A stretch of DNA of 64,000 bases from Acidimicrobiales bacterium (GTDB lineage: Bacteria; Actinomycetota; Acidimicrobiia; Acidimicrobiales; Acidimicrobilacustridaceae): positions 54,923 through 118,922 of the forward strand of contig JAURMR010000037.1 of the NCBI GenBank assembly GCA_030830565.1, in the 5' to 3' direction. Made by a program: the position numbers and the translations under genes. The notes under the pieces were generated by a model. That model searched no databases, was not told where the DNA came from, and saw only the letters and a list, made by a program, of their open reading frames with translations. Of the stretch, positions 13,761-25,198 are shown in pieces; the first letter of the stretch is position 1, and every line of letters begins with the position of its first letter.

Positions 13761-13925
13761 TTGACGGGGGGCCACCTGTGTGGTGGGGTGTGTCCACAAC
13801 TTGACCCACCGCAGTAGGGGAAGCCGGTCCGATTCCGGCGCTGACCCGCAACCGTAGGTGGCCACTGGAGAGATTCTTCGGGCGGTCACGAGCCGGACTG
13901 CCTGCTCGGGGGGAAATGCTCCATC
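13761..13925 (+). promoter_or_regulatory. Cobalamin (adenosylcobalamin-type) riboswitch
   Basis: The 371-bp gap before the DUF4430 gene holds the conserved cobalamin-aptamer core: GGGGAAGCCGGTCCGATTCC followed by GGCGCTGACCCGCAACCGTA (about 13816-13855). The closing B12-box-like AGCCGGACTGCCTGCT is at 13891-13906. GGCCACCT (13770-13777) pairs perfectly with AGGTGGCC (13856-13863), and GTGGTGGG pairs with CCCACCGC inside. B12 riboswitches normally repress uptake genes when cobalamin is plentiful, which fits the ECF operon below. The remaining bases to 14070 contain GGGAGGTGG at about 13950, possibly part of the expression platform. I could not identify a clear terminator. Confidence 0.88.
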
Positions 13926-14062: not shown

Positions 14063-14092
14063 AGACTGCAATGAAGCAGACTGCAATGAAGC
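14063..14092 (+). repeat. Perfect 15-bp tandem repeat over the start codon
   Basis: AGACTGCAATGAAGC occurs twice in direct succession. The repeat keeps the reading frame and gives two consecutive possible ATG starts (14071 and 14086) for the DUF4430 gene. Confidence 0.9.
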
Positions 14093-14952
14093 GCTCGTCG
14101 CTTCGGCGCGCACGTCGGGCGCTCGGTGCAGCGCTTCTGGGAATTGCAGCGCTGGCGGGCGTGGTGGTTGGTGGAGCATCGCCGGCGGGCGCGTCCTCAT
14201 GTTCGGGTCCGATTGCAGGCGGAGAAATTCGTGTCGTTCTCGTTGTTGATGCGAGTGATCTCGGAGGAGGGGCATCGGCAACGTGTTTGGTGGTTGCCGC
14301 CGGAACCACGGGATCTCAACTGTTGGCGCGACGGGGCAGCGAACTTGGAACTGGTGCTCCGCGTTACGGCTCGAGTGGTCTGCTTTGCGCGATCGATGGT
14401 CGTCCCGCATCGGGTTGCGGTGATCGCAGCGCCGGGGGATTTGAATACTGGGCGTACTTCAACGGTTCTTCGGGTTCGTGGGTCTACGGGAACTTCAACC
14501 CCTTCACTCGCCGACTTTCCGACGGCGATATTGAAGGTTGGCGCTACGTGAGTGGTGCAGGAAACGGACAAGACCCGCCCCCTCGCATTGGGCCCGCACG
14601 TTCGCTGTTTCCTGCGCTTGCTCCGAGCCTTCCATCGCTTCCCGACCTTTCGTCGCTCGCGCCACCGAGTGGTGCCGGTGATTCTCCGAGTTCGGGTGCT
14701 CGTTCCGCCGTGGTTCCCTCGACTTCGCCGAGCACTGGCGAAGCGCGTGTTGACCCTTCGGGGGACACGAGCGTCGATGGAGTTTCCTCCTCAACGACAG
14801 TCGACGACTCAGTTGCTGTTGGAGCCGTTGCCCTCGCCTCCTCCAGCACAACGCACTCGACGACTGGTCGCTGGATCGGGATCGCGGCGGTGTTCGTTCT
14901 GATCGCCGTGATGGCCGGCGGCGCGTGGGTGCAGACTCGAAGGTCCCGATGA
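14071..14952 (+). CDS. Surface-anchored DUF4430 (transcobalamin-like) protein, probable cobalamin binder
   Basis: A 293-residue exported protein. It has a basic N-terminus, a hydrophobic core (GAALLGIAALAGVVVGG) and an AxA-type cleavage site before SSCSG. One globular domain follows with FEYWAYFNGSSGSWVYGNFN and RRLSDGDIEGWRYVSG, the signature of DUF4430, a domain related to the C-terminal beta domain of transcobalamin/intrinsic factor. A Pro/Ser/Thr-rich spacer (about 170-255) leads to a C-terminal membrane helix (WIGIAAVFVLIAVMAGGAWV) and a basic tail. It would hold a ligand-binding domain outside the membrane. Regulation by the cobalamin riboswitch and ATGA coupling to ecfT point to cobalamin capture for the ECF transporter. 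The start is uncertain because of the tandem repeat, and no Shine-Dalgarno sequence is seen. Confidence 0.85.
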   Translation: MKQTAMKRSSLRRARRALGAALLGIAALAGVVVGGASPAGASSCSGPIAGGEIRVVLVVDASDLGGGASATCLVVAAGTTGSQLLARRGSELGTGAPRYGSSGLLCAIDGRPASGCGDRSAGGFEYWAYFNGSSGSWVYGNFNPFTRRLSDGDIEGWRYVSGAGNGQDPPPRIGPARSLFPALAPSLPSLPDLSSLAPPSGAGDSPSSGARSAVVPSTSPSTGEARVDPSGDTSVDGVSSSTTVDDSVAVGAVALASSSTTHSTTGRWIGIAAVFVLIAVMAGGAWVQTRRSR

Positions 14953-16046
14953 GCGCTCCACGGCTGTTGCACCCGGGGGCATGGTGGCTTTGGGCCGTCG
15001 CATTGTCGGCATGCGCGTTGCGCACGACGAATCCAGTTCTTCTCTGTCTCATTATTGCCGTTGCTGGTTGGGTCGTTGTTTCACGGCGAGCCGATGTTCC
15101 ATGGTCGCGATCGTTTGCGAGTTGTTTACGACTCGGGATGATCGTGATCATCGTTCGCGTTGTCTTCCAGATTCTGTTTGGGGTGCGCGTTTCAGGCATG
15201 ACGTTGTTCACAATTCCTGAAGTCACGCTTCCTGACTGGGCGGCGGGTGTGAGTCTCGGCGGACCTGTCACGCTCGAGTCACTCATGGCTGCGCTGTATC
15301 AAGGCCTTCGACTCGCCGCAGTACTCGCATGTTTCGGTGCAGCAACATCACTCTGCAGTCCCTATCGAATGCTTCGAGCACTTCCAACGGTGTTGTACGA
15401 AGCAGGGGTTGCCGTGACAATTGCGTTCACGTTTGCTCCGCAGGCAATTGTTGCGTCCCGCCAAGTTCGTGAAGCTCGGCGATTGCGCGGTCGATCGGAC
15501 CGAGGTGTGCGGGCATGGACAGCGTCGGCACTTCCTGTGCTCGAAGGTGCATTAGACCGTGCCGTTGCTCTTGCGGCATCAATGGATAGCCGTGGCTATG
15601 GCCGACGTGGTTCGAGTTCGGTGGCAGTTCGTCGTCGTTCGATCGGACTTGTGCTGTTGGGTCTCGTTGCAATCGCAGTTGGTTCCTACGGTCTTCTTGA
15701 TCCTGGCGCTCCAGCGCTTTTCCGGGTCCCCGCTCTCGCACTGGGGGCTGCTGCACTACTTGGTGCGCTCATTGCCGGGGGACGTTCGACCACGCGCACT
15801 CGGTATCGCCCAGACCCGTGGGCGGCTCCGGAGTGGATTGTTTCGTTCGCAGGCGTTGTCGCGTTCGGTTCGTTCGTCTCTGTAAGTCGTATGGGTGACG
15901 CGCTGAATCCATCAACGAATCCGCTAGAGGTTCCCGCCGTTCCCGTCCTTGCTGTCGTCGGGCTCCTCGTTGCCGCACTCCCGGCGTGGTGTGCTCCGCG
16001 CCCACCAGCGCTGGTTGCTCCTTCAACTATGGCGGTAGCGGCGTGA
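14949..16046 (+). CDS. ecfT: ECF transporter transmembrane subunit EcfT
   Basis: A 365-residue integral membrane coupling subunit of an energy-coupling-factor vitamin transporter. About six to eight hydrophobic segments flank the cytoplasmic region that carries the two short EcfT coupling motifs contacting the ATPases: REARRLRGRS near residue 180 and ASMDSRGYGRRG near residue 218. The ATG at 14949 overlaps the previous stop (ATGA), which sets the start against the ORF-track start at 14925. Its C-terminal part is longer than in minimal CbiQ proteins, with three extra hydrophobic stretches. It works with the fused ATPase and S component encoded next. Confidence 0.93.
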   Translation: MSAPRLLHPGAWWLWAVALSACALRTTNPVLLCLIIAVAGWVVVSRRADVPWSRSFASCLRLGMIVIIVRVVFQILFGVRVSGMTLFTIPEVTLPDWAAGVSLGGPVTLESLMAALYQGLRLAAVLACFGAATSLCSPYRMLRALPTVLYEAGVAVTIAFTFAPQAIVASRQVREARRLRGRSDRGVRAWTASALPVLEGALDRAVALAASMDSRGYGRRGSSSVAVRRRSIGLVLLGLVAIAVGSYGLLDPGAPALFRVPALALGAAALLGALIAGGRSTTRTRYRPDPWAAPEWIVSFAGVVAFGSFVSVSRMGDALNPSTNPLEVPAVPVLAVVGLLVAALPAWCAPRPPALVAPSTMAVAA

Positions 16047-17677
16047 TCCGGTTCGAGCACGTGACGATCACCTATCCAGAGGCGTCGGCGCCCACACTCG
16101 TCGATGTTTCGTTTGAGGTTCCTGAAGGTGAACTTTGCCTTGTAGTTGGCGTTACTGGTTCGGGTAAGTCGACGCTGCTTCGAGCAGTGAACGGTTTGGT
16201 GCCGAGATTCTCGGGCGGAGTCCTCGCAGGATCGGTCACGATCGATGGACTCAGTACCTCAGCGGTACCGCCGCGCGATCTCGCCGATGTCGTCGGAGTT
16301 GTTGGGCAAGATCCGGCTGCAGGTTTTGTGACTGATTACGTCGAAGACGAACTCGCGTACGCAATGGAAAATCTGGGTGTTGCCCCCGATGTTATGCGCC
16401 GCCGCGTCGAGGATATTTTGGATCTTCTGGGTTTGCACGAGCTTCGCAATCGCCCGCTGGCCTCTCTTTCTGGTGGTCAGCAACAGCGCGTTGCGATTGG
16501 TTCGGTGCTGACAGCAGGGCCTCGTGTTCTGGTGCTCGATGAGCCGACCTCTGCTCTTGACCCAGCTGCAGCCGAAGAAGTGCTTGCTGCTTTGACCCGC
16601 TTGGTGCACGACCTCGGTATCACCGTGCTGATCGCTGAACACCGTCTTGAGCGTGTGGTGCAATACGCCGATCGCATCGTGATGGTTCCGGGCGATGGCC
16701 GTCAAGTCGTTGTCGGTACTCCTGCCGAGGTGTTTGGTCAGTCATCGGTCGCGCCTCCCGTTGTTGAACTTGGACGCTTGGCCGGGTGGGCTCCTCTTCC
16801 GCTTTCAGTTCGAGATGCACGCCGCGTTGCCGGTCCGCTTCGCGAACAACTCGCGTCGGTCGATTCGGCTCACTTCAGTCGCGCGACTCGATCACCCGGT
16901 GAAGTCATTGCCACCACGAATGGATTGCAGGCGTCCTACGGCCCAGTCACTGCACTTCGCGGGGTTGATGTTGAATTCCGTGCCGGTGAAGTTGTTGCGC
17001 TGATGGGCCGCAATGGCGCGGGAAAGTCGACCCTCCTCAATCACCTTGTGGGTTTGCGAGAGCCGGCTTCTGGAGCAGTGCAAGTCATGGGATCACAGCC
17101 GCATCGGCTGTCTGCACGTGACGTCGTCCGCGTTGCTGGTTTAGTTCCGCAAGACAGTGGTGTGTTGCTCTACCACGACACGGTTGCGGCCGAATGCAGC
17201 GCGTCAGACCGTGACGCAGGACTTACAAACGGGACGACACGAACGGTGCTCGATCGGATTGTTCCAGGTGTTGATCCGTCAACGCATCCACGTGACCTCT
17301 CAGAGGGACAACGCCTCGGTCTTGCGCTCTCGATTGTTTTGGCCTCTGAACCGCCTTTGCTTCTGCTCGATGAACCCACTCGAGGGCTTGACTATGGGGC
17401 CAAGCAGCGGTTGGTCGCCGTTCTCGAACAACTTGCTGCCGATGGCCATGCAGTCGTGATTGCGACTCACGATGTTGAAGTCGTTGCGTCTGTTGCTGAC
17501 CGATGCATTGTTCTTGCAGAAGGTGAAGTCGTCGCCGATGGTCCTGCGCGCGATGTCGTCGTTCATTCGCCAGTATTCGCTCCGCAGGTCGCCAAGGTTC
17601 TCGCTCCGCTCGCGCTGCTTACTGTGCACGAGGTTGAATTAGCGCTCGCAGTAGCGAGTGATAGTCCCTACAAATGA
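16043..17677 (+). CDS. ECF transporter ATPase, fused EcfA1-EcfA2
   Basis: A 544-residue protein with two ABC ATPase domains in one chain, replacing the separate EcfA and EcfA' subunits. Domain 1 (about 1-235) has Walker A GVTGSGKSTLL, signature LSGGQQQR and Walker B VLVLDEPTSAL. Domain 2 (about 290-510) has GRNGAGKSTLL, LSEGQRLGLALS (a diverged signature) and LLLLDEPTRGLD. The GTG at 16043 overlaps the ecfT stop as GTGA, so the upstream 19 residues of the track ORF are excluded. It powers uptake together with EcfT and the S component. Confidence 0.94.
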   Translation: MIRFEHVTITYPEASAPTLVDVSFEVPEGELCLVVGVTGSGKSTLLRAVNGLVPRFSGGVLAGSVTIDGLSTSAVPPRDLADVVGVVGQDPAAGFVTDYVEDELAYAMENLGVAPDVMRRRVEDILDLLGLHELRNRPLASLSGGQQQRVAIGSVLTAGPRVLVLDEPTSALDPAAAEEVLAALTRLVHDLGITVLIAEHRLERVVQYADRIVMVPGDGRQVVVGTPAEVFGQSSVAPPVVELGRLAGWAPLPLSVRDARRVAGPLREQLASVDSAHFSRATRSPGEVIATTNGLQASYGPVTALRGVDVEFRAGEVVALMGRNGAGKSTLLNHLVGLREPASGAVQVMGSQPHRLSARDVVRVAGLVPQDSGVLLYHDTVAAECSASDRDAGLTNGTTRTVLDRIVPGVDPSTHPRDLSEGQRLGLALSIVLASEPPLLLLDEPTRGLDYGAKQRLVAVLEQLAADGHAVVIATHDVEVVASVADRCIVLAEGEVVADGPARDVVVHSPVFAPQVAKVLAPLALLTVHEVELALAVASDSPYK

Positions 17678-18513
17678 CCGTCGCAACGCCACGGCGTGTC
17701 GACGCGGTTCGGCTCGGCCTTACTGCATGGGTGCTGCTCGTTGCAGCATTTGCTCTCGGCATCGTCGCGTTTGCATGGCCGCTCTTTGCGTCTGCAAGTT
17801 CTTCTATCGATGCATCTCATAGCAACGATGCTCCGTGGATCTTCGTCGTCCTGATCCCTTTGCTCATCGGGGTGATTTTGGCCGAATTGGCTGATGGTTC
17901 TCTTGACGCGAAATCGGTTGCGTTGCTCGGAGTACTTGCAGCAAGTGGCGCTGTTCTGCGTTTGCCGAGTGGAGGCGTTGCTGGTTTCGAGCCGGTGTTC
18001 TTTCTGCTTGTGCCGGCGGGCCGAGTCTTTGGACGCGGCTTTGGTTTCGTCCTTGGAGCGATCACGCTGTTCGTCAGTGCGCTGATTACAGGTGGTGTCG
18101 GTCCGTGGTTGCCGTTCCAGATGTTCGGAGCCGCCTGGATCGGATTCTTCGCCGGTTGTCTGCCGCCTGCGCGTGGCCGTATCGAAATTGCGATGTTGGC
18201 CGCATACGGAGCGATCGCTGCACTCGCCTATGGGCTCGTCATGAACCTTTGGTTCTGGCCGTTTGTGAGCGCTGGCGATACGACTGTTTCCTACGTGGCG
18301 GGAGATTCCCTTGTCGACAATCTCCGGCGCTTTTGGGGCTTTCACGTCACTACATCGTTCGGCTTCGATATCCCCCGTGCGGTCTTCACCGCATTGTTTA
18401 TTGTCGTTGCTGGTCGCCCCGTTCTTGGAGCTCTCCGTCGGGTTGCTCGTCGCGCCGCGTTTGAAGCACCGGTGTCGTTTATCGATGCATCGGCTTCTGG
18501 TTCAACCAACTGA
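17674..18513 (+). CDS. ECF transporter substrate-binding S component, probable cobalamin
   Basis: A 279-residue membrane protein with about six hydrophobic segments, e.g. LTAWVLLVAAFALGIVAFAW, VVLIPLLIGVILAELADG and ALFIVVAGRPVLGALR. This is the size and topology of ECF S components, which bind the vitamin. AALAYGLVMNLWFWPF and the Ala/Gly-rich helices fit the S-component fold. Its ATG overlaps the ATPase stop. Because the operon is preceded by a cobalamin riboswitch, cobalamin or a precursor is the best-supported substrate. That is inference from regulation, not from binding residues. The C-terminal tail is rich in Ser and Ala. Confidence 0.87.
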   Translation: MTVATPRRVDAVRLGLTAWVLLVAAFALGIVAFAWPLFASASSSIDASHSNDAPWIFVVLIPLLIGVILAELADGSLDAKSVALLGVLAASGAVLRLPSGGVAGFEPVFFLLVPAGRVFGRGFGFVLGAITLFVSALITGGVGPWLPFQMFGAAWIGFFAGCLPPARGRIEIAMLAAYGAIAALAYGLVMNLWFWPFVSAGDTTVSYVAGDSLVDNLRRFWGFHVTTSFGFDIPRAVFTALFIVVAGRPVLGALRRVARRAAFEAPVSFIDASASGSTN

Positions 18514-19508: not shown

Positions 19509-20357
19509 CTAACGCTTTGACGTTGCTTCGGCGATTCGCTCGAAGGCGTCGAGCATTTCCGTCGCCGAGGTCGTGACCGCATCGGCGTGTGCGCGACGAA
19601 CATCTTCGCCGATGCCGTGTCCACCGATAACTACCGCACAACCGACCTGATCTTTGACTGCGCTCGCAGTCGCAATGACCTGGTCATCCACGCCTGCGGT
19701 GGTGGAACTAATGCCGACAGCAATCAGGCGATCGGCCGAATTGGCAGCGTCGATGAACGACTCAACCGGCGAGTTTGCGCCGAGATCAATCACCGTGAAG
19801 CCGCGACCGCGGAGTAAATCAGAGGCCATTGCGATCGGAACTGCGTGTTGATCGCCTGCGGCTGCACCGAGAACGACAGTTCCGCGGGTTTGTCCTGGCC
19901 GACTGAATTGCGGTCCTAGACGGCCGATGAGGCGACTCGTGACTGCAGTGGCGAGGTGTTCCTCGGCAATGGAAACTTCTCCGATTGCCCATGCCGCGCC
20001 GATTGCCGCAAGGGCGGGAGAAAGGACATCGAGATAGACCGCTGTCGGCTCAAGCCCCGATGCCATGGCGGCTTCGATGACGTTCCACGAACCGGCTTCA
20101 TCGCCTGCAATGAGTCGGTCTCCGATTCGGGCTGACCAATCAACCCGTTCGCCTGAAGCACGCGGTGAGGGGGTGGAACCAAAGGTGTCGAGTGCTTCTT
20201 TTGAAACGACCCAGCCCCCGCCAACCTTTGTTGCGGCGAGTCGACCGGTGCGCACATATTTGTACACCGTCATGTAGTGCACGCCGAGTGCCTCGGCTGC
20301 TTGATGGAGGGTGAGCGAGGTGCTGTCCGAAACTGGCCGCTCTGCTGCTTTGATCAT
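19509..20357 (-). CDS. CarH-like cobalamin-binding transcriptional regulator with excisionase-type HTH
   Basis: A 282-residue regulator. Residues about 14-60 are a helix-turn-helix of the excisionase/HTH_17 type (LTLHQAAEALGVHYMTVYKY, then VGGGWVVSKEAL), not a full MerR domain. Residues about 70-145 form the four-helix B12-binding cap with the W-x9-E-H motif (W123, E133, H134) used by CarH photoreceptors. Residues about 158-270 are a Rossmann B12-binding domain with D169-x-H171, whose His would be the lower cobalt ligand, and VVIGGHGIGED. The usual DxHxxG reads DQHAVP. GGGGGAG a few bases before the ATG at 20357 fixes the start. In CarH, adenosylcobalamin drives operator binding and light releases it; the same logic is inferred here. 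Palindromes precede the gene. Confidence 0.87.
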   Translation of the reverse strand: MIKAAERPVSDSTSLTLHQAAEALGVHYMTVYKYVRTGRLAATKVGGGWVVSKEALDTFGSTPSPRASGERVDWSARIGDRLIAGDEAGSWNVIEAAMASGLEPTAVYLDVLSPALAAIGAAWAIGEVSIAEEHLATAVTSRLIGRLGPQFSRPGQTRGTVVLGAAAGDQHAVPIAMASDLLRGRGFTVIDLGANSPVESFIDAANSADRLIAVGISSTTAGVDDQVIATASAVKDQVGCAVVIGGHGIGEDVRRAHADAVTTSATEMLDAFERIAEATSKR

Positions 20358-20372
20358 CGCTCCCCCTTTCAC

Positions 20373-20404
20373 ACCTTTTCAACGATGTTGAAGAAGGAAA
20401 AGGT
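20373..20404 (-). promoter_or_regulatory. Nested palindromes, candidate operator of the B12-binding regulator
   Basis: An inner palindrome TTCAAC-GAT-GTTGAA (20378-20392) lies inside an outer inverted repeat ACCTTTTC/GAAAAGGT (20373-20380 and 20397-20404). The set lies directly upstream of the regulator's ribosome site. It could be an autoregulatory operator. Confidence 0.5.
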
Positions 20405-20427
20405 ACCGGTGAGAGGTCACCGGAACC
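20402..20427. repeat. Imperfect 11-bp inverted repeat after bioD
   Basis: GGTACCGGTGA and TCACCGGAACC flank four bases, with one mismatch. It may be the terminator of the biotin operon or a second operator for the regulator gene. The rest of the gap up to 20469 shows nothing distinctive. Confidence 0.45.
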
Positions 20428-20469
20428 TGATCGGGCGGTGTATTTCGAAGGGGAGCGCGCTTTCCCTTG

Positions 20470-21132
20470 CTATTTCGGTGAAATTTTCGCCAAAACACTC
20501 GGAACGCTTGAAAGGACGTCAACCTCAAGGTGGCGAACAAGCCAGTCGCGATTTCGGCGATGAAGATCGTCAGCGGGATCGAAACGATTGAGGACGACGA
20601 TCGGTGTGGCGACATGCGCACCGCTATTGATCGCTTCAAGACTCAAGGTGACGTCATTGATTGTTCCGAGACCAGCGTCGGCAACAAGTAAGACGATGTC
20701 TGGCTGAAGAAGTTCTATGAGCGTGATCGCATCGCCGTTCGACGCCATTGGCGAACGAACACCACCGACTGATTCGACGAATGCAATCGACGGCGCCGGT
20801 AGTGGCCACTGAATTTCCGAGACGAGATCCTCAATGGAAAATTGCGGTCGGGCGAGAGCATCGGCTGCCATGGGTGGAGCCATGGGAATCGGGTACCAGC
20901 GATGACGTGGACAAACATCGGCTGGAGTTTCCCCAGAGGCATCAGCCAAAAAATGCGCGTCCGTGAATGAATCATCGGGATCAAACGATTGCGCAGGTTT
21001 ACGCGCTGCTACGTCATGGCCATTGGCACGCAAGTCGCGTAAGAGTCGAGCCGAAACGTAGGTCTTTCCAACCTCGGTTCGCGTACCAACAACGACAATG
21101 AGTTGTTGGGGTCGTAATCCGTCGAACGTCAT
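20470..21132 (-). CDS. bioD: Dethiobiotin synthetase
   Basis: A 220-residue ATP-dependent carboxylase closing the ureido ring of 7,8-diaminopelargonate to give dethiobiotin. The P-loop is VGTRTEVGKTYVSARLL (GxxxxxGKT), ARKPAQSF carries the catalytic Lys, and the conserved glycine-rich substrate loop is FVESVGGVRSPMA. Length is normal. Its start overlaps the bioF stop by four bases. It is the last gene of the kinase-bioA-bioF-bioD operon; bioB, the final step, is not in the window. Confidence 0.93.
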   Translation of the reverse strand: MTFDGLRPQQLIVVVGTRTEVGKTYVSARLLRDLRANGHDVAARKPAQSFDPDDSFTDAHFLADASGETPADVCPRHRWYPIPMAPPMAADALARPQFSIEDLVSEIQWPLPAPSIAFVESVGGVRSPMASNGDAITLIELLQPDIVLLVADAGLGTINDVTLSLEAINSGAHVATPIVVLNRFDPADDLHRRNRDWLVRHLEVDVLSSVPSVLAKISPK

Positions 21133-22277
21133 TGTCCACCGTCCGTTCCCAGCGCGCGTAGAGCATCAGTAAGTGAAGAAATCTGCTCATCAGTATGGGC
21201 CGCGGACAAGGCAATGCGGAGGCGGCTTGATCCGACCGCAACCGTGGGCGGCCGAATGGCGGGTACAAGTAGGCCGCGCTCAAGGAGAAATTGCGATGCT
21301 GCAAGTGCGGCGGACTCTTCGCCGAGAATCATCGGGATGATGGGGGAGGGGTGCCCCGGTCGAACTTGCGCTATCTGTTGACGCAATCGTTCACGAAGCG
21401 CATGACCCTCAGTGGATCGCAAAATGCTGATTGCCGCGAGCGCTGCTGCCGAATCTGCGGGGCTTGGCGCTGTCGTAAAGATGTACGTGCGAGCCCTATT
21501 TACAAGAAGATCAACAAGTGTTTTCGGTCCGGCGACGAAACCCCCGAGTGCCCCAAGAGTTTTGGAAAGTGTCCCCACTTGGATGACGTAGGCACCATTA
21601 AGGATTGATTCTGGCGCAGGCTCCAGAACAGCGTGTGCTTCATCGACCACCAGAAGCGCGCCGTGTCGCGAGCAAAGCGAAGCGAGTTTGTTGATAGGAG
21701 CCACATCCCCGTCCATGGAGAAGACCGTGTCAGTGACGACAACCTGTCGCGATGTTGAATTGGCGGACAGGTTCGTTGCGAGTTCGTCGAGGTCGAGATG
21801 TCGGTAGGTCTGGACCGTGGCACCGTTTGCGCGCGCCATTCGACAACCATCGATGATCGACGCGTGATTGAGAGCGTCGGAATGAATGACGACGCCGGTC
21901 GATCCAAGTGTGGCAAGAAGGCCAAGGTTTGCGGCGAAGCCCGTGGGGAAGAGGACTGCCGATTCAGTACTGCGCCACTCTGCGATTGCGTCCTCAAGTT
22001 CGTGATGAACAGGACGTGAGCCAACGACCAAACGTGATGCCCCTGAACCTGCTCCCCACCGATGTGCTGCATCGGCTGCTGCTTCCTTCACCTTCGGATG
22101 TGCAGTAAGGCCGAGGTAATCGTTTGACGCAAACGAGACAACCGTGCGCCCTTCAAGAATCCCCACTGGACCGGAGGCATCGAAGGATCTCGGAGCGCGC
22201 CATCGCCCGCTTTGTTTGATCTCGGTCTCTTGTGTCGTGAACCACTTTGACCAATCGGGAGATTGGTTGTCGCTCAC
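21129..22277 (-). CDS. bioF: 8-amino-7-oxononanoate synthase
   Basis: A 382-residue PLP enzyme condensing pimeloyl thioester and alanine. It belongs to the alpha-oxoamine synthase family: SFASNDYLGLTAHP at the N-terminus, the His-bearing HSDALNHASIIDGCRMA loop, LLVVDEAHAVLE with the PLP-ring Asp, and the Schiff-base Lys in VGTLSKTLGALGGFVAG. The GTG at 22277 overlaps the bioA stop as GTGA; an in-frame GTG at 22286 is the alternative. Family members also make other amino-ketones, but the bioA/bioD context makes biotin synthesis secure. Confidence 0.94.
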   Translation of the reverse strand: MSDNQSPDWSKWFTTQETEIKQSGRWRAPRSFDASGPVGILEGRTVVSFASNDYLGLTAHPKVKEAAADAAHRWGAGSGASRLVVGSRPVHHELEDAIAEWRSTESAVLFPTGFAANLGLLATLGSTGVVIHSDALNHASIIDGCRMARANGATVQTYRHLDLDELATNLSANSTSRQVVVTDTVFSMDGDVAPINKLASLCSRHGALLVVDEAHAVLEPAPESILNGAYVIQVGTLSKTLGALGGFVAGPKTLVDLLVNRARTYIFTTAPSPADSAAALAAISILRSTEGHALRERLRQQIAQVRPGHPSPIIPMILGEESAALAASQFLLERGLLVPAIRPPTVAVGSSRLRIALSAAHTDEQISSLTDALRALGTDGGQ

Positions 22278-23596
22278 TGAGTGCACACCTCGTTGATCGA
22301 TGCTTCCAAGACATCAGCGATTCGGCTGATCTCATCGGCGGTCGAAGTGAGGATCGGCATGAGGACGATGACATCGCCAAGCGGGCGAAGAAGAACTCCG
22401 CGGTTTACTGCGGCGGCGCACACGCGTCGGCCCCATCGAAGATCATCCTTGGGCGGGTCAAGCTCCACGCCAACCATGAGTCCTCGCTGGCGAATCTCTT
22501 TGATCGCGGAATTTCCGTCAGCGATGACTCCCAGGCGGGAACGAAGTTGTGCGGCGCGCTCGCGCACATTGGTAAGAACGTCGAGTTCTCCAAAGAGTTG
22601 AAGATGTCGAAGTGCAACGGCCGCAGCAAGGGCATTGCCGGAAAAAGAGTGGCCGTGGTAGAGCGTCATCTCGCTGAGGTCGGGGCCAAGGAATGCTTCA
22701 TACACACGACGCGAAGCAACTGTCGCCGCCATTGCGAGGTAGCCGCCGGTCAAACCCTTGCCGATGCACATGACGTCGGGCCGCACTCGACATTGTTCGG
22801 ACGCGAACAGCGTCCCGGTCCGACCAAAACCCGTCGCAACTTCATCGGCAATCAACAAGACGTCATGTTCCCGGCATGCATCGGCAACTCGCTCGACCGA
22901 CTCGGGGTCTGTAATCCACATTCCCACAGCGCCTTGGACGAGTGGTTCGATAATTACGGCGGCAAGTTCGTGAGCATGAGCGCGAATCATTGCGACTGCG
23001 GTGTCGGCCCAGCCCGGATCGACATAACCCGGAGCGCGCAAGACATCGAAGCGAAGTGGGTTGAACATGTCGGTTCCGAATCCACCAGCGCCGACTGAAA
23101 TCGATCCGATGGTGTCACCGTGATACGCACCACCAAGAGCGAGATAGCGAGTGCGATCGGTGATGCCCTGATTCGTCCAGTATTGGAACGCGATCTTGAT
23201 TGCCTGTTCTACTGCCGCGGCTCCATCCGAAGCGAAAAGGAAATGCGGTTCGCTCACGGGAACGTGGGGAGCGAGCGCTTCAGCGAGTTCGATGGTGATG
23301 CGGTTTCCGTTCCCCAGCATCGTTGAATGCGCGATGCGATCCAGTTGTTCGCGTGCCGCAGCATCAAGTTCAGGTACGCGATGTCCGAGCGTTGTTACCC
23401 ACAGCGACGAGATTGCATCGAGATACCGCGTGCCATCGACATCGATGAGTTCACGGCCTTCTCCTGATTCGACAATGATCGGTCGATTGGTGGCGTAGGT
23501 TGCCATTTGTGTGAAGCCATGCCAGACCACGGCGGTATCCCGGTCCACCCAACGTTCGTGAGCGCTGGTCAGGGACGTGTTGTTGTCATCGGTCAC
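22274..23596 (-). CDS. bioA: Adenosylmethionine-8-amino-7-oxononanoate aminotransferase
   Basis: A 440-residue class-III PLP aminotransferase converting 8-amino-7-oxononanoate to 7,8-diaminopelargonate with SAM as amino donor. Typical features are the substrate segment VWHGFTQM, SSLWVTTLGHRVPELD, ALGGAYHGDTIGSISVG, the PLP Asp in LLIADEVATGFGRTG and the Lys in CIGKGLTGGYL. The GTG at 23596 overlaps the kinase stop (GTGA), so the 34 residues added in the ORF track are discarded. It is coupled to both neighbours. Confidence 0.94.
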   Translation of the reverse strand: MTDDNNTSLTSAHERWVDRDTAVVWHGFTQMATYATNRPIIVESGEGRELIDVDGTRYLDAISSLWVTTLGHRVPELDAAAREQLDRIAHSTMLGNGNRITIELAEALAPHVPVSEPHFLFASDGAAAVEQAIKIAFQYWTNQGITDRTRYLALGGAYHGDTIGSISVGAGGFGTDMFNPLRFDVLRAPGYVDPGWADTAVAMIRAHAHELAAVIIEPLVQGAVGMWITDPESVERVADACREHDVLLIADEVATGFGRTGTLFASEQCRVRPDVMCIGKGLTGGYLAMAATVASRRVYEAFLGPDLSEMTLYHGHSFSGNALAAAVALRHLQLFGELDVLTNVRERAAQLRSRLGVIADGNSAIKEIRQRGLMVGVELDPPKDDLRWGRRVCAAAVNRGVLLRPLGDVIVLMPILTSTADEISRIADVLEASINEVCTQ

Positions 23597-25131
23597 CGGG
23601 ACAGCATCGCACCCTTGGCATCGAGGTGGCGAAGGCATCGCCATTCTTCGATCTGGTGGGCCATTGGGGTCGACGGGGGCCCGTCGACAAAGGGCCATAA
23701 CTCCTCAGCGATCTTGCGCCAATCGCCGGTTGCATGGAGTTCACCGAGGATCGCGTAGAGGCCCAGGCTGATGCGCTGGATGATGACGAAGCTGCCCGGA
23801 AGATTTGCTGCCTTCTGCATCACGGCGTAGGGGCCACTGGTATCGAAAAACCGACGGACGGTTTCTGATGCGTACTCGGGGGTGATCGTGAAGTCGCCTT
23901 CCATGGCGACGAACTCGTAGAAGTGGCCGAGATAGTCGATGACATCAGCGTCGGTGACATCGAGTCCTGCTGGTAGAAGCCCGAGGCGTTCGACAGTTGC
24001 GCGGAATGCAGCGGCATCGTGATTGATCACCATGTGCTGGATCATTTCGCCGAACTCATCAAGTTCTTCAGCGGTGAAGTACTTCACGAGACCGAAGTCG
24101 AGGAACGTGACGCGTCCGCCCGGATGGAATAGATAGTTGCCGGGATGTGGGTCGCCATTGAACGCAGCAAGTCGGTAGAGCCCACCGAACGCAAAGCGGT
24201 AGAGCGTCTCTGCGGCCAGATCTTTTTCTTTCTGGCTCCAGGTCAGGAGTTCATCCCATCGGGCCCCATCGGAAAGTTCGGTCGTGAGCACTCGTCGAGT
24301 TGAGTACTCGTCAACAACATGGGGAATGTGAATTGTGGGATGTCCGTCGTAGTAGCGAGCGAACGCCCGTTGGTTTGCCGCTTCGATTTCGTAATCGAGT
24401 TCTTCCACAACTCGTTCACGCAATTCGGCAACGAGGGCTTTATGGTCGAGTCCGGGGAAGAGAACGCCAAGTCCGGCGAAGATGAAACCTGCGTTGTTGA
24501 GATCAGAGGAGACTGCTTCGGCAACGCCGGGGTATTGCACTTTGACTGCGACAGCTTTTCCCTCGCGAGTGAGGGCTCGATGCACCTGACCGATCGATGC
24601 CGATGCGATGGGAGTTGGATCCCAGGTTTCGAAAAGTTCATTCGGGTGCTTACCGAGTTCTTCACAAATCACCTGGGCAGCGAGTTCGGCGCTCATAGGT
24701 GGGGCATTCTGCTGAAGGTCTGCAAGTGCGCCACGAACGTGTTCTGGAAGCCCTTGGTCGATGTAGCTGGCCATCTGGCCGACCTTCATAAGCGCGCCCT
24801 TCATTTGACCGAGGGCTTCGGTGACTTGTTGCGTCGTTTCCATTTCGAACGCAAGGTCAAGTTCTCGTCGTTTGCCGGCGTCGGCGAAAACTCGCCGGGC
24901 ACGATGACGGGCGTAGGCGCCACCGGTCTTGGCCCCCAGGAGCGCAAGACGGAAGTTGCGTGCCGTTCGATGGCCGTTCTGCACTGGCCCGATGGGTGGC
25001 GTGCTTGATCGGCGGGATTGAACAGCGGTCACCACTGCGGCGATCACCGCGATCGGCAGGAGCCATCGGAATGCACGTCGGAGTCCTTTCACGATGGGAA
25101 CGCTAGGGGTCTTGCACGACTTCACCCTCAT
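23593..25131 (-). CDS. ABC1/AarF/UbiB-family atypical kinase
   Basis: A 512-residue protein with an N-terminal membrane helix (RWLLPIAVIAAVVTAV) and an ABC1 kinase-like domain. The family hallmarks are the K-x-G-Q motif in GALMKVGQMASYIDQGLP, the Ala-rich nucleotide loop PIASASIGQVHRA replacing the Gly-rich loop, the VAVKVQYPGV Lys, the catalytic NGDPHPGNYLF and metal-binding FLDFGLVK. Relatives support quinone or prenyl-lipid synthesis and have ATPase activity. It heads the biotin operon and its stop is fused to the bioA start. A role in biotin synthesis is not known for the family. The start ATG at 25131 lacks a clear ribosome site. Confidence 0.9.
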   Translation of the reverse strand: MRVKSCKTPSVPIVKGLRRAFRWLLPIAVIAAVVTAVQSRRSSTPPIGPVQNGHRTARNFRLALLGAKTGGAYARHRARRVFADAGKRRELDLAFEMETTQQVTEALGQMKGALMKVGQMASYIDQGLPEHVRGALADLQQNAPPMSAELAAQVICEELGKHPNELFETWDPTPIASASIGQVHRALTREGKAVAVKVQYPGVAEAVSSDLNNAGFIFAGLGVLFPGLDHKALVAELRERVVEELDYEIEAANQRAFARYYDGHPTIHIPHVVDEYSTRRVLTTELSDGARWDELLTWSQKEKDLAAETLYRFAFGGLYRLAAFNGDPHPGNYLFHPGGRVTFLDFGLVKYFTAEELDEFGEMIQHMVINHDAAAFRATVERLGLLPAGLDVTDADVIDYLGHFYEFVAMEGDFTITPEYASETVRRFFDTSGPYAVMQKAANLPGSFVIIQRISLGLYAILGELHATGDWRKIAEELWPFVDGPPSTPMAHQIEEWRCLRHLDAKGAMLSR

Positions 25132-25198
25132 CAAGCGCTCACGAGAGACCCTTTCTCGCCGATAGCGTGTCGCCGTTCACTCGGCTGGGGGAGTTCCC

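Follow-up and report, generated by a model that had tools for sequence, protein, structure and literature searches.

The window, that is, the whole 64-kb stretch of DNA analyzed here, belongs to a 2.0-Mb assembly (71% complete; the genome was searched by pattern) whose close named relatives are Acidimicrobiales metagenome-assembled genomes (MAGs), several of which are labeled Microthrixaceae or Microthrix. On the minus strand, the reading frame at 19509-20357 is open and encodes a regulator of 282 amino acids when counted from the ATG at 20357, with an in-frame GTG located five codons upstream of this start. The protein, hereafter R, combines an HTH_17 domain, an excisionase-type winged helix (residues 15-59; 20181-20315, minus strand; Pfam and homolog alignment), with a two-part cobalamin sensor. 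The latter consists of a B12-binding_2 four-helix bundle holding G120, W123, E133, and H134 (residues 77-147; 19917-20129, minus strand) and a B12-binding Rossmann domain with G168-x2-H171 and G193-x3-P197 (residues 160-272; 19542-19880, minus strand), both delineated by Pfam, the structural model, and the alignment. The Pfam matches all exceeded their cut-offs (E-values of 1.2e-10 for HTH_17, 5.9e-13 for B12-binding_2, and 6.3e-11 for B12-binding), and the AlphaFold2 model of R, built from 37 orthologs, had a mean pLDDT of 91.

An earlier note on this DNA had described the DNA-binding domain as excisionase-like, and a domain search setting HTH_17 against MerR bore this out. HTH_17 scored 41.9 bits (Pfam cut-off, 27) and the NCBIfam model TIGR01764 ("excise") scored 43.4 (cut-off, 28.8), while no MerR model of either collection matched the N terminus of R in the profile search. 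The NCBIfam equivalog for CarH (NF052513) gave 60.4 bits, far from its cut-off of 400. Judged by its HTH, by this score, and by the residue at the His132 position discussed below, R is not a CarH/LitR protein of the MerR family. A PDB search with the HTH alone returned nothing significant (best E-value, 0.07). The domain is reminiscent of BldC from Streptomyces (68 amino acids), a small MerR-like HTH without the classical coiled coil; BldC is without a sensor, and its binding sites are direct repeats (PMC5859096), whereas the site that we infer for R from sequence is an inverted repeat, sometimes present as two sites in tandem, a difference that counts against the operator proposed below. Six residues of the HTH of R (H27, Y28, T30, Y32, G38, and L40) were invariant among 37 homologs, and a conserved operator is therefore predicted.

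The solved sequences nearest to R are those of verified B12 photoreceptors, namely CtMerR, SasPcob, AbDPcob, and TtCarH. CtMerR, a MerR-family B12 photoreceptor from Chloracidobacterium thermophilum (8JBS/8JBT), was the best match of the sensor in sequence (8jbs; E-value, 3.8e-18) and in fold (Foldseek against the 8jbs sensor: target TM-score, 0.80; root mean square deviation, 2.5 Å) and bears the same signature; the TtCarH sensor gave a TM-score of about 0.8. The signature of light-responsive cobalamin-binding domains (CBDs) defined by SignatureFinder (GxxW, EH, GxxH, and GxxxP; PMC11796333) is complete in R as G120xxW123, E133H134, G168xxH171, and G193xxxP197. Among the 37 homologs, G120, W123, E133, H134, and P197 were each kept in 36, and H171 and G193 in all 37; the glycine of GxxH, G168, was the loosest position of the signature (28/37). 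The W-x9-E-H motif reported in the earlier note was found where it had been placed, reading W-AIGEVSIAE-EH, with W123 at 19989-19991 (minus strand; TtCarH W131 in the alignment and PMC10442372) and E133-H134 at 19956-19961 (minus strand; TtCarH E141-H142). The same applies to the cobalt-ligand histidine of its DxH motif, since H171 in GDQH (19845-19847, minus strand; TtCarH H177), the predicted lower axial ligand, is invariant in the alignment. The replacement of the DxHxxG glycine by proline, which the note had also pointed out, is true of the sequence (GDQHAVP) but does not constitute a defect, as Pro174 occurs in 35 of the 37 homologs and in SasPcob (GEWHALP). Conservation in 35 to 37 of the 37 aligned homologs indicates that W123, E133, H134, H171, and P174 are not matters of chance. 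With the light-responsive signature in place, R probably works in a CarH-like manner in outline, and both cobalamin binding and a light response are predicted for it. That R is instead an ordinary corrinoid- or methyltransferase-associated protein, or a degenerate B12-binding protein devoid of regulatory photochemistry, is very improbable: its weak NCBIfam similarity to MtgC/MtaC, which would favor such a role, reached 37-62 bits against cut-offs of 310-450, no methyltransferase genes were seen in the R neighborhoods, and R keeps the photoreceptor signature along with an HTH whose recognition region is invariant.

The codon following W123 marks a departure from CarH. In TtCarH, the residue at this position, His132, makes the bis-His light state (PMC10442372); in R it is Ala124, and alanine occupies the position in 31 of the 37 homologs. 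A bis-His light state of the CarH type therefore cannot form in R, and it is doubtful that R simply repeats the mechanism of CarH. Most of the TtCarH H132A protein remains tetrameric after light (PMC10442372), whereas an earlier report, as quoted in that paper, found that H132A disassembles instead. CtMerR has an arginine at this position and, like R, no histidine. Light responses without a His132-type residue are known for CtMerR, SasPcob, and AbDPcob (PMC11796333), so that the light output of R, if any, would be of their kind. CtMerR differs from R in possessing a MerR HTH instead of HTH_17 and may differ in its target genes. SasPcob and AbDPcob, of which AbDPcob comes from an Acidimicrobiaceae bacterium, are photocobilins that share the CBD type of R but carry bilin-binding/GGDEF-type parts where R carries an HTH. 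HTH-fused CBDs in general already feature in published mining (PMC11796333). In the planctomycete and other distant matches (L055-L064), W-x9-EH is kept, and most of the planctomycete ones have a histidine after the tryptophan, nearer the classical CarH pocket.

As the earlier note had observed, R is convergent to a riboswitch-controlled operon and lies beside biotin genes. An Rfam cobalamin riboswitch (RF00174), scoring just over the gathering threshold, was located at 13761-13923 on the plus strand; 3' of it, at 14071-18513 (plus strand), lie genes for an SCO2322-like protein, a CbiQ-like permease, a double ECF ATPase, and a 279-amino-acid protein of no named family. The riboswitch and the ECF/CbiQ-type genes probably constitute a B12-controlled ECF uptake operon. 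Upstream of R on its own strand are bioD, bioF, and bioA, and the order ABC1 kinase-bioA-bioF-bioD-R (19509-25134, minus strand) persists in most members of the genus. Despite this kept order, R has a promoter-like block of its own upstream (CCCGATCAGG...TACCTT; 20400-20435, minus strand), which is not the palindromic operator and is likewise kept in most of the genus. The block is probably a promoter, the alternative being a site for another regulator. As a candidate operator of R it was rejected, for the genome contains just one other full match to CCCGATCAGG-N20-TACSGT, on contig C9 between thioredoxin-like and thioredoxin-reductase-like genes. The palindromes upstream of R, offered in the earlier note as binding sites, are present at 20378-20428 (AGGTACCGGTGA/TCACCGGAACCT and TTCAAC/GTTGAA) but are not conserved in congeners, which argues against their being R operators. 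The location next to biotin and B12-uptake genes likewise failed as a hint at targets: the 64-kb window holds no copy, within three mismatches, of the operator described below, and R thus has the biotin genes and the transporter operon behind the riboswitch as neighbors and not as predicted targets.

Comparison of the R upstream regions outside the window's genus revealed a 14-bp palindrome, ATTTAGYRCTAAAT. R was detected in 41 of the 158 sampled genomes of the order, and most members of the genus and of the family have it. Scanning of the R loci yielded about 50 matches to ATTTAGYRCTAAAT with no more than one mismatch, almost all of them intergenic and located before R or adjacent operons. 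Such sites precede R itself (many of them at R genes without whiB), the P450::ABC1-R operon of marine relatives, glycosyltransferase-CrtO (PF18927)-R operons, amine oxidase-DUF1365-CFA synthase operons, and, again in marine relatives, genes for superoxide dismutase (SOD) and a sigma factor; they also lie between R and a bacteriorhodopsin gene, or between a polyprenyl synthase gene and a lycopene-cyclase gene. In 11 of the 19 promoters compared by eye, the right half of the palindrome runs on into TANNNT on the gene side, and in four loci (L093, L094, L098, and L090) 6-7 nt separate the -10-like box from the start codon, as in a leaderless promoter. A palindrome overlapping a -10-like box is a layout that suits a repressor. 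R is linked in relatives to SDR-amine oxidase-DUF1365-CFA genes; in one cultured relative, Aciditerrimonas ferrireducens (L053 and L200), which has R, the site is at the amine oxidase/SDR genes. This gene set resembles the regulon of Pseudomonas class II LitR, in which photolyase, SDR, FAD oxidoreductase, and the UfaM fatty-acid synthase are light-induced (PMC9758184), although class II LitR does not bind B12 and acts through LOV proteins, unlike the predicted B12 sensor of R. The DUF1365/CFA operon was discarded as a target in the window's genome, where, at 71% completeness, DUF1365 was not found.

The exact word TTTAGYRCTAAA is associated with the presence of R across the order (158 genomes), occurring in 17 of the 41 genomes with R and in 11 of the 117 without it (Fisher p = 1.6e-5; 2e-4 leaving out the genus), in a set of MAGs in which relatives do not count as independent. 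Outside the genus, 12 of the 24 exact sites in R-bearing genomes were within 5 kb of R, where fewer than 0.1 would be expected (binomial p of about 4e-24 for a 10-kb target, a value that is indicative, as the genomes are related). Many R-bearing genomes have no exact site. With a looser pattern, TTTAGNNCTAAA, scanned in 61 relatives, sites were also found in G056 and G057, in which no R was detected; their centers are non-YR, and in G056 matches to the reversed control pattern were as numerous. The fragmented assemblies G006 and G016, in which R was not found, carry the genus site described next.

Within the window's genus, TTTAGNNCTAAA occurs once in 18 of the 21 genomes, including the window's own, where it lies outside the window at C20:45838-45849. 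It is found twice in G002, once per contig and both times at the whiB-cobA::hemD locus, and is absent from G012 and G013. Every genus site is situated between whiB (PF02467) and cobA::hemD or hemD, with a photolyase gene on the other side of whiB. Over 19 sequences the site is invariant apart from its center (one flanking base, 95%), compared with an average of 56-58% for the flanks. On the whiB side the site always extends to TAAATT, a -10-like box that it overlaps, which is not the case on the other side; a leaderless -10-like CCTAGGCT for cobA::hemD is positioned well downstream. R, which adjoins biotin genes in this genus, shares the whiB/cobA::hemD neighborhood elsewhere: family f27 has a single site-whiB-R-nei-hemH operon, and genus g12 has the arrangement cobA::hemD<-R->whiB, followed by a photolyase-family gene (cluster 19). 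Near-sites (at least 11 of 14 positions) were located upstream of whiB orthologs outside the genus in 8 of 12 genomes with R, versus 0 of 7 whiB genes of genomes without R (p = 0.013). The domains and signature of R, together with the operator's conservation, its placement, and its link to R, can be read directly from the sequences. Consistent with the suggestion in the earlier note of a target set other than carotenogenesis, phytoene synthase (PF00494) was absent from all 16 genus genomes searched, so that carotenogenesis is not the target there, and the one exact operator is at whiB; rhodopsin was found in 4 of the 16. Relatives of R outside the genus do border carotenoid and rhodopsin genes. 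In the near-complete congener G012, R is present while this whiB and the exact operator are missing, which implies another R target in that genome.

The palindrome could in principle serve a different regulator of R and whiB, such as a MarR/SlyA-like protein or WhiB itself, with the targets of R lying elsewhere. The TTAG...CTAA arms resemble MarR/SlyA half-sites, whiB stands at the site in both the genus and family f27, the R promoter of the genus lacks the site, and 11 R-less genomes have exact copies. Several of these R-less copies, however, are inside genes or in unrelated contexts, the whiB relatives of R-less genomes are without the site, 5 kb or less separates R from half of the exact sites outside the genus, many sites stand at R without whiB, and the neighborhoods inspected showed no other regulator gene recurring next to the sites. 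We consider binding by another protein rather improbable and infer that R itself occupies the site. R might also act as an activator, or as a divergent switch, mainly on cobA::hemD-hemB-hemL, with whiB as a bystander. The site does separate whiB from cobA::hemD in all site-bearing genus genomes and in G034, and cobA::hemD neighbors R in g12 and lies near it in G024. Yet the overlapped TAAATT is conserved on the whiB side only, CCTAGGCT lies at a distance from the site, and in f27 it is whiB, not hemD, that directly follows the site, making a main role at cobA::hemD likewise improbable.

Our preferred reading, which we hold to be reasonably probable, is that R is an AdoCbl-dependent and probably light-responsive transcription factor that represses whiB through ATTTAGYRCTAAAT, with a CarH-type sensor mounted on an HTH_17 domain. 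In the dark, AdoCbl-loaded R would bind ATTTAGYRCTAAAT over the -10 box and repress transcription, and photolysis of the Co-C bond, or a lack of AdoCbl, would free R from the DNA. An ATP:cob(I)alamin adenosyltransferase is present, so AdoCbl can be made, provided that cobalamin is taken up. The genus regulon would be essentially one promoter, that of whiB. This gene, which encodes a WhiB regulator of the Fe-S type, is divergent from the cobA::hemD-hemB-hemL operon and adjoins photolyase; through it, R would act on a further regulator, one of photo-oxidative/redox and possibly also of tetrapyrrole metabolism. Family members in relatives may exert more direct control over rhodopsin, carotenoid, and membrane-lipid protection genes. 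TtCarH and LitR class I have the two-part cobalamin sensor, W-x9-EH, and the axial histidine in common with R and act as dark-bound repressors over a promoter, as proposed here for R; they differ in their HTH (MerR versus HTH_17), in the residue at position 132 (His versus Ala), and in their targets (crt genes versus whiB in the genus), and the operator predicted for R is the 14-bp palindrome.

A related possibility, unlikely in our view but the most probable of the alternatives, is that R senses the AdoCbl level and not light, AdoCbl-bound R repressing the whiB/hem genes and loss of AdoCbl derepressing them. The alanine at the His132 position would fit such a protein, given the largely persistent tetramer of illuminated TtCarH H132A (PMC10442372), as would the presence next to the sites of genes that supply tetrapyrrole and B12 synthesis (cobA/hemD, hemB, hemL, and hemH) and the riboswitch-controlled transporter near R in the window. 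Against it, R is linked in relatives to genes of a photoprotective or photic kind (rhodopsin, carotenoid, photolyase, SOD, and CFA/amine oxidase), it has the full photoreceptor signature including W123, whose counterpart stacks on the adenosyl group in TtCarH, and the B12-uptake operon of the window has no operator.

Under the preferred, light-responsive reading, the Acidimicrobiales may possess an HTH_17-headed family of B12 photoreceptors with its own 14-bp operator and a light output without bis-His; in streamlined members such as the window's genus, its reach would have shrunk to a single promoter, that of whiB, coupling green light and B12 to an Fe-S redox regulator, and perhaps to the tetrapyrrole operon, in a carotenoid-free light regulon; we put this broader proposal at slightly below an even chance. 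Neither the operator nor the link to whiB seems to have been described before in the literature searched, in which the operator word and HTH_17 plus cobalamin regulators returned nothing relevant. From the analysis, a clade of B12 photoreceptor-like regulators in aquatic actinobacteria gains a predicted DNA target and regulon that can be tested. Should the proposal prove true, a CarH-type sensor can operate with another DNA-binding head and needs no His132 switch, and the output of B12 light sensing can be a WhiB redox regulator rather than pigment synthesis. Decisive experiments are simple with so narrow a predicted regulon (one site in most genus genomes), and a single-operator system of this kind may serve optogenetics.

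Several arrangements in relatives are recorded here in their own right. In marine Acidimicrobiia, a P450::ABC1-kinase fusion of about 975 amino acids (L038:5071-7998 and orthologs; L197:3985-6942) is conserved directly upstream of R, with the operator before the fusion. In L195, L196, L199, and L201, a whiB-R-nei-like glycosylase-ferrochelatase operon follows one or two operator copies; the operators are in tandem in L196 and L199, and L196 is without the glycosylase gene. G034 has a second R paralog (L101:786-2476); a near-operator separates it from a divergently oriented bacteriorhodopsin-like gene, and this rhodopsin is a candidate for B12-light control.
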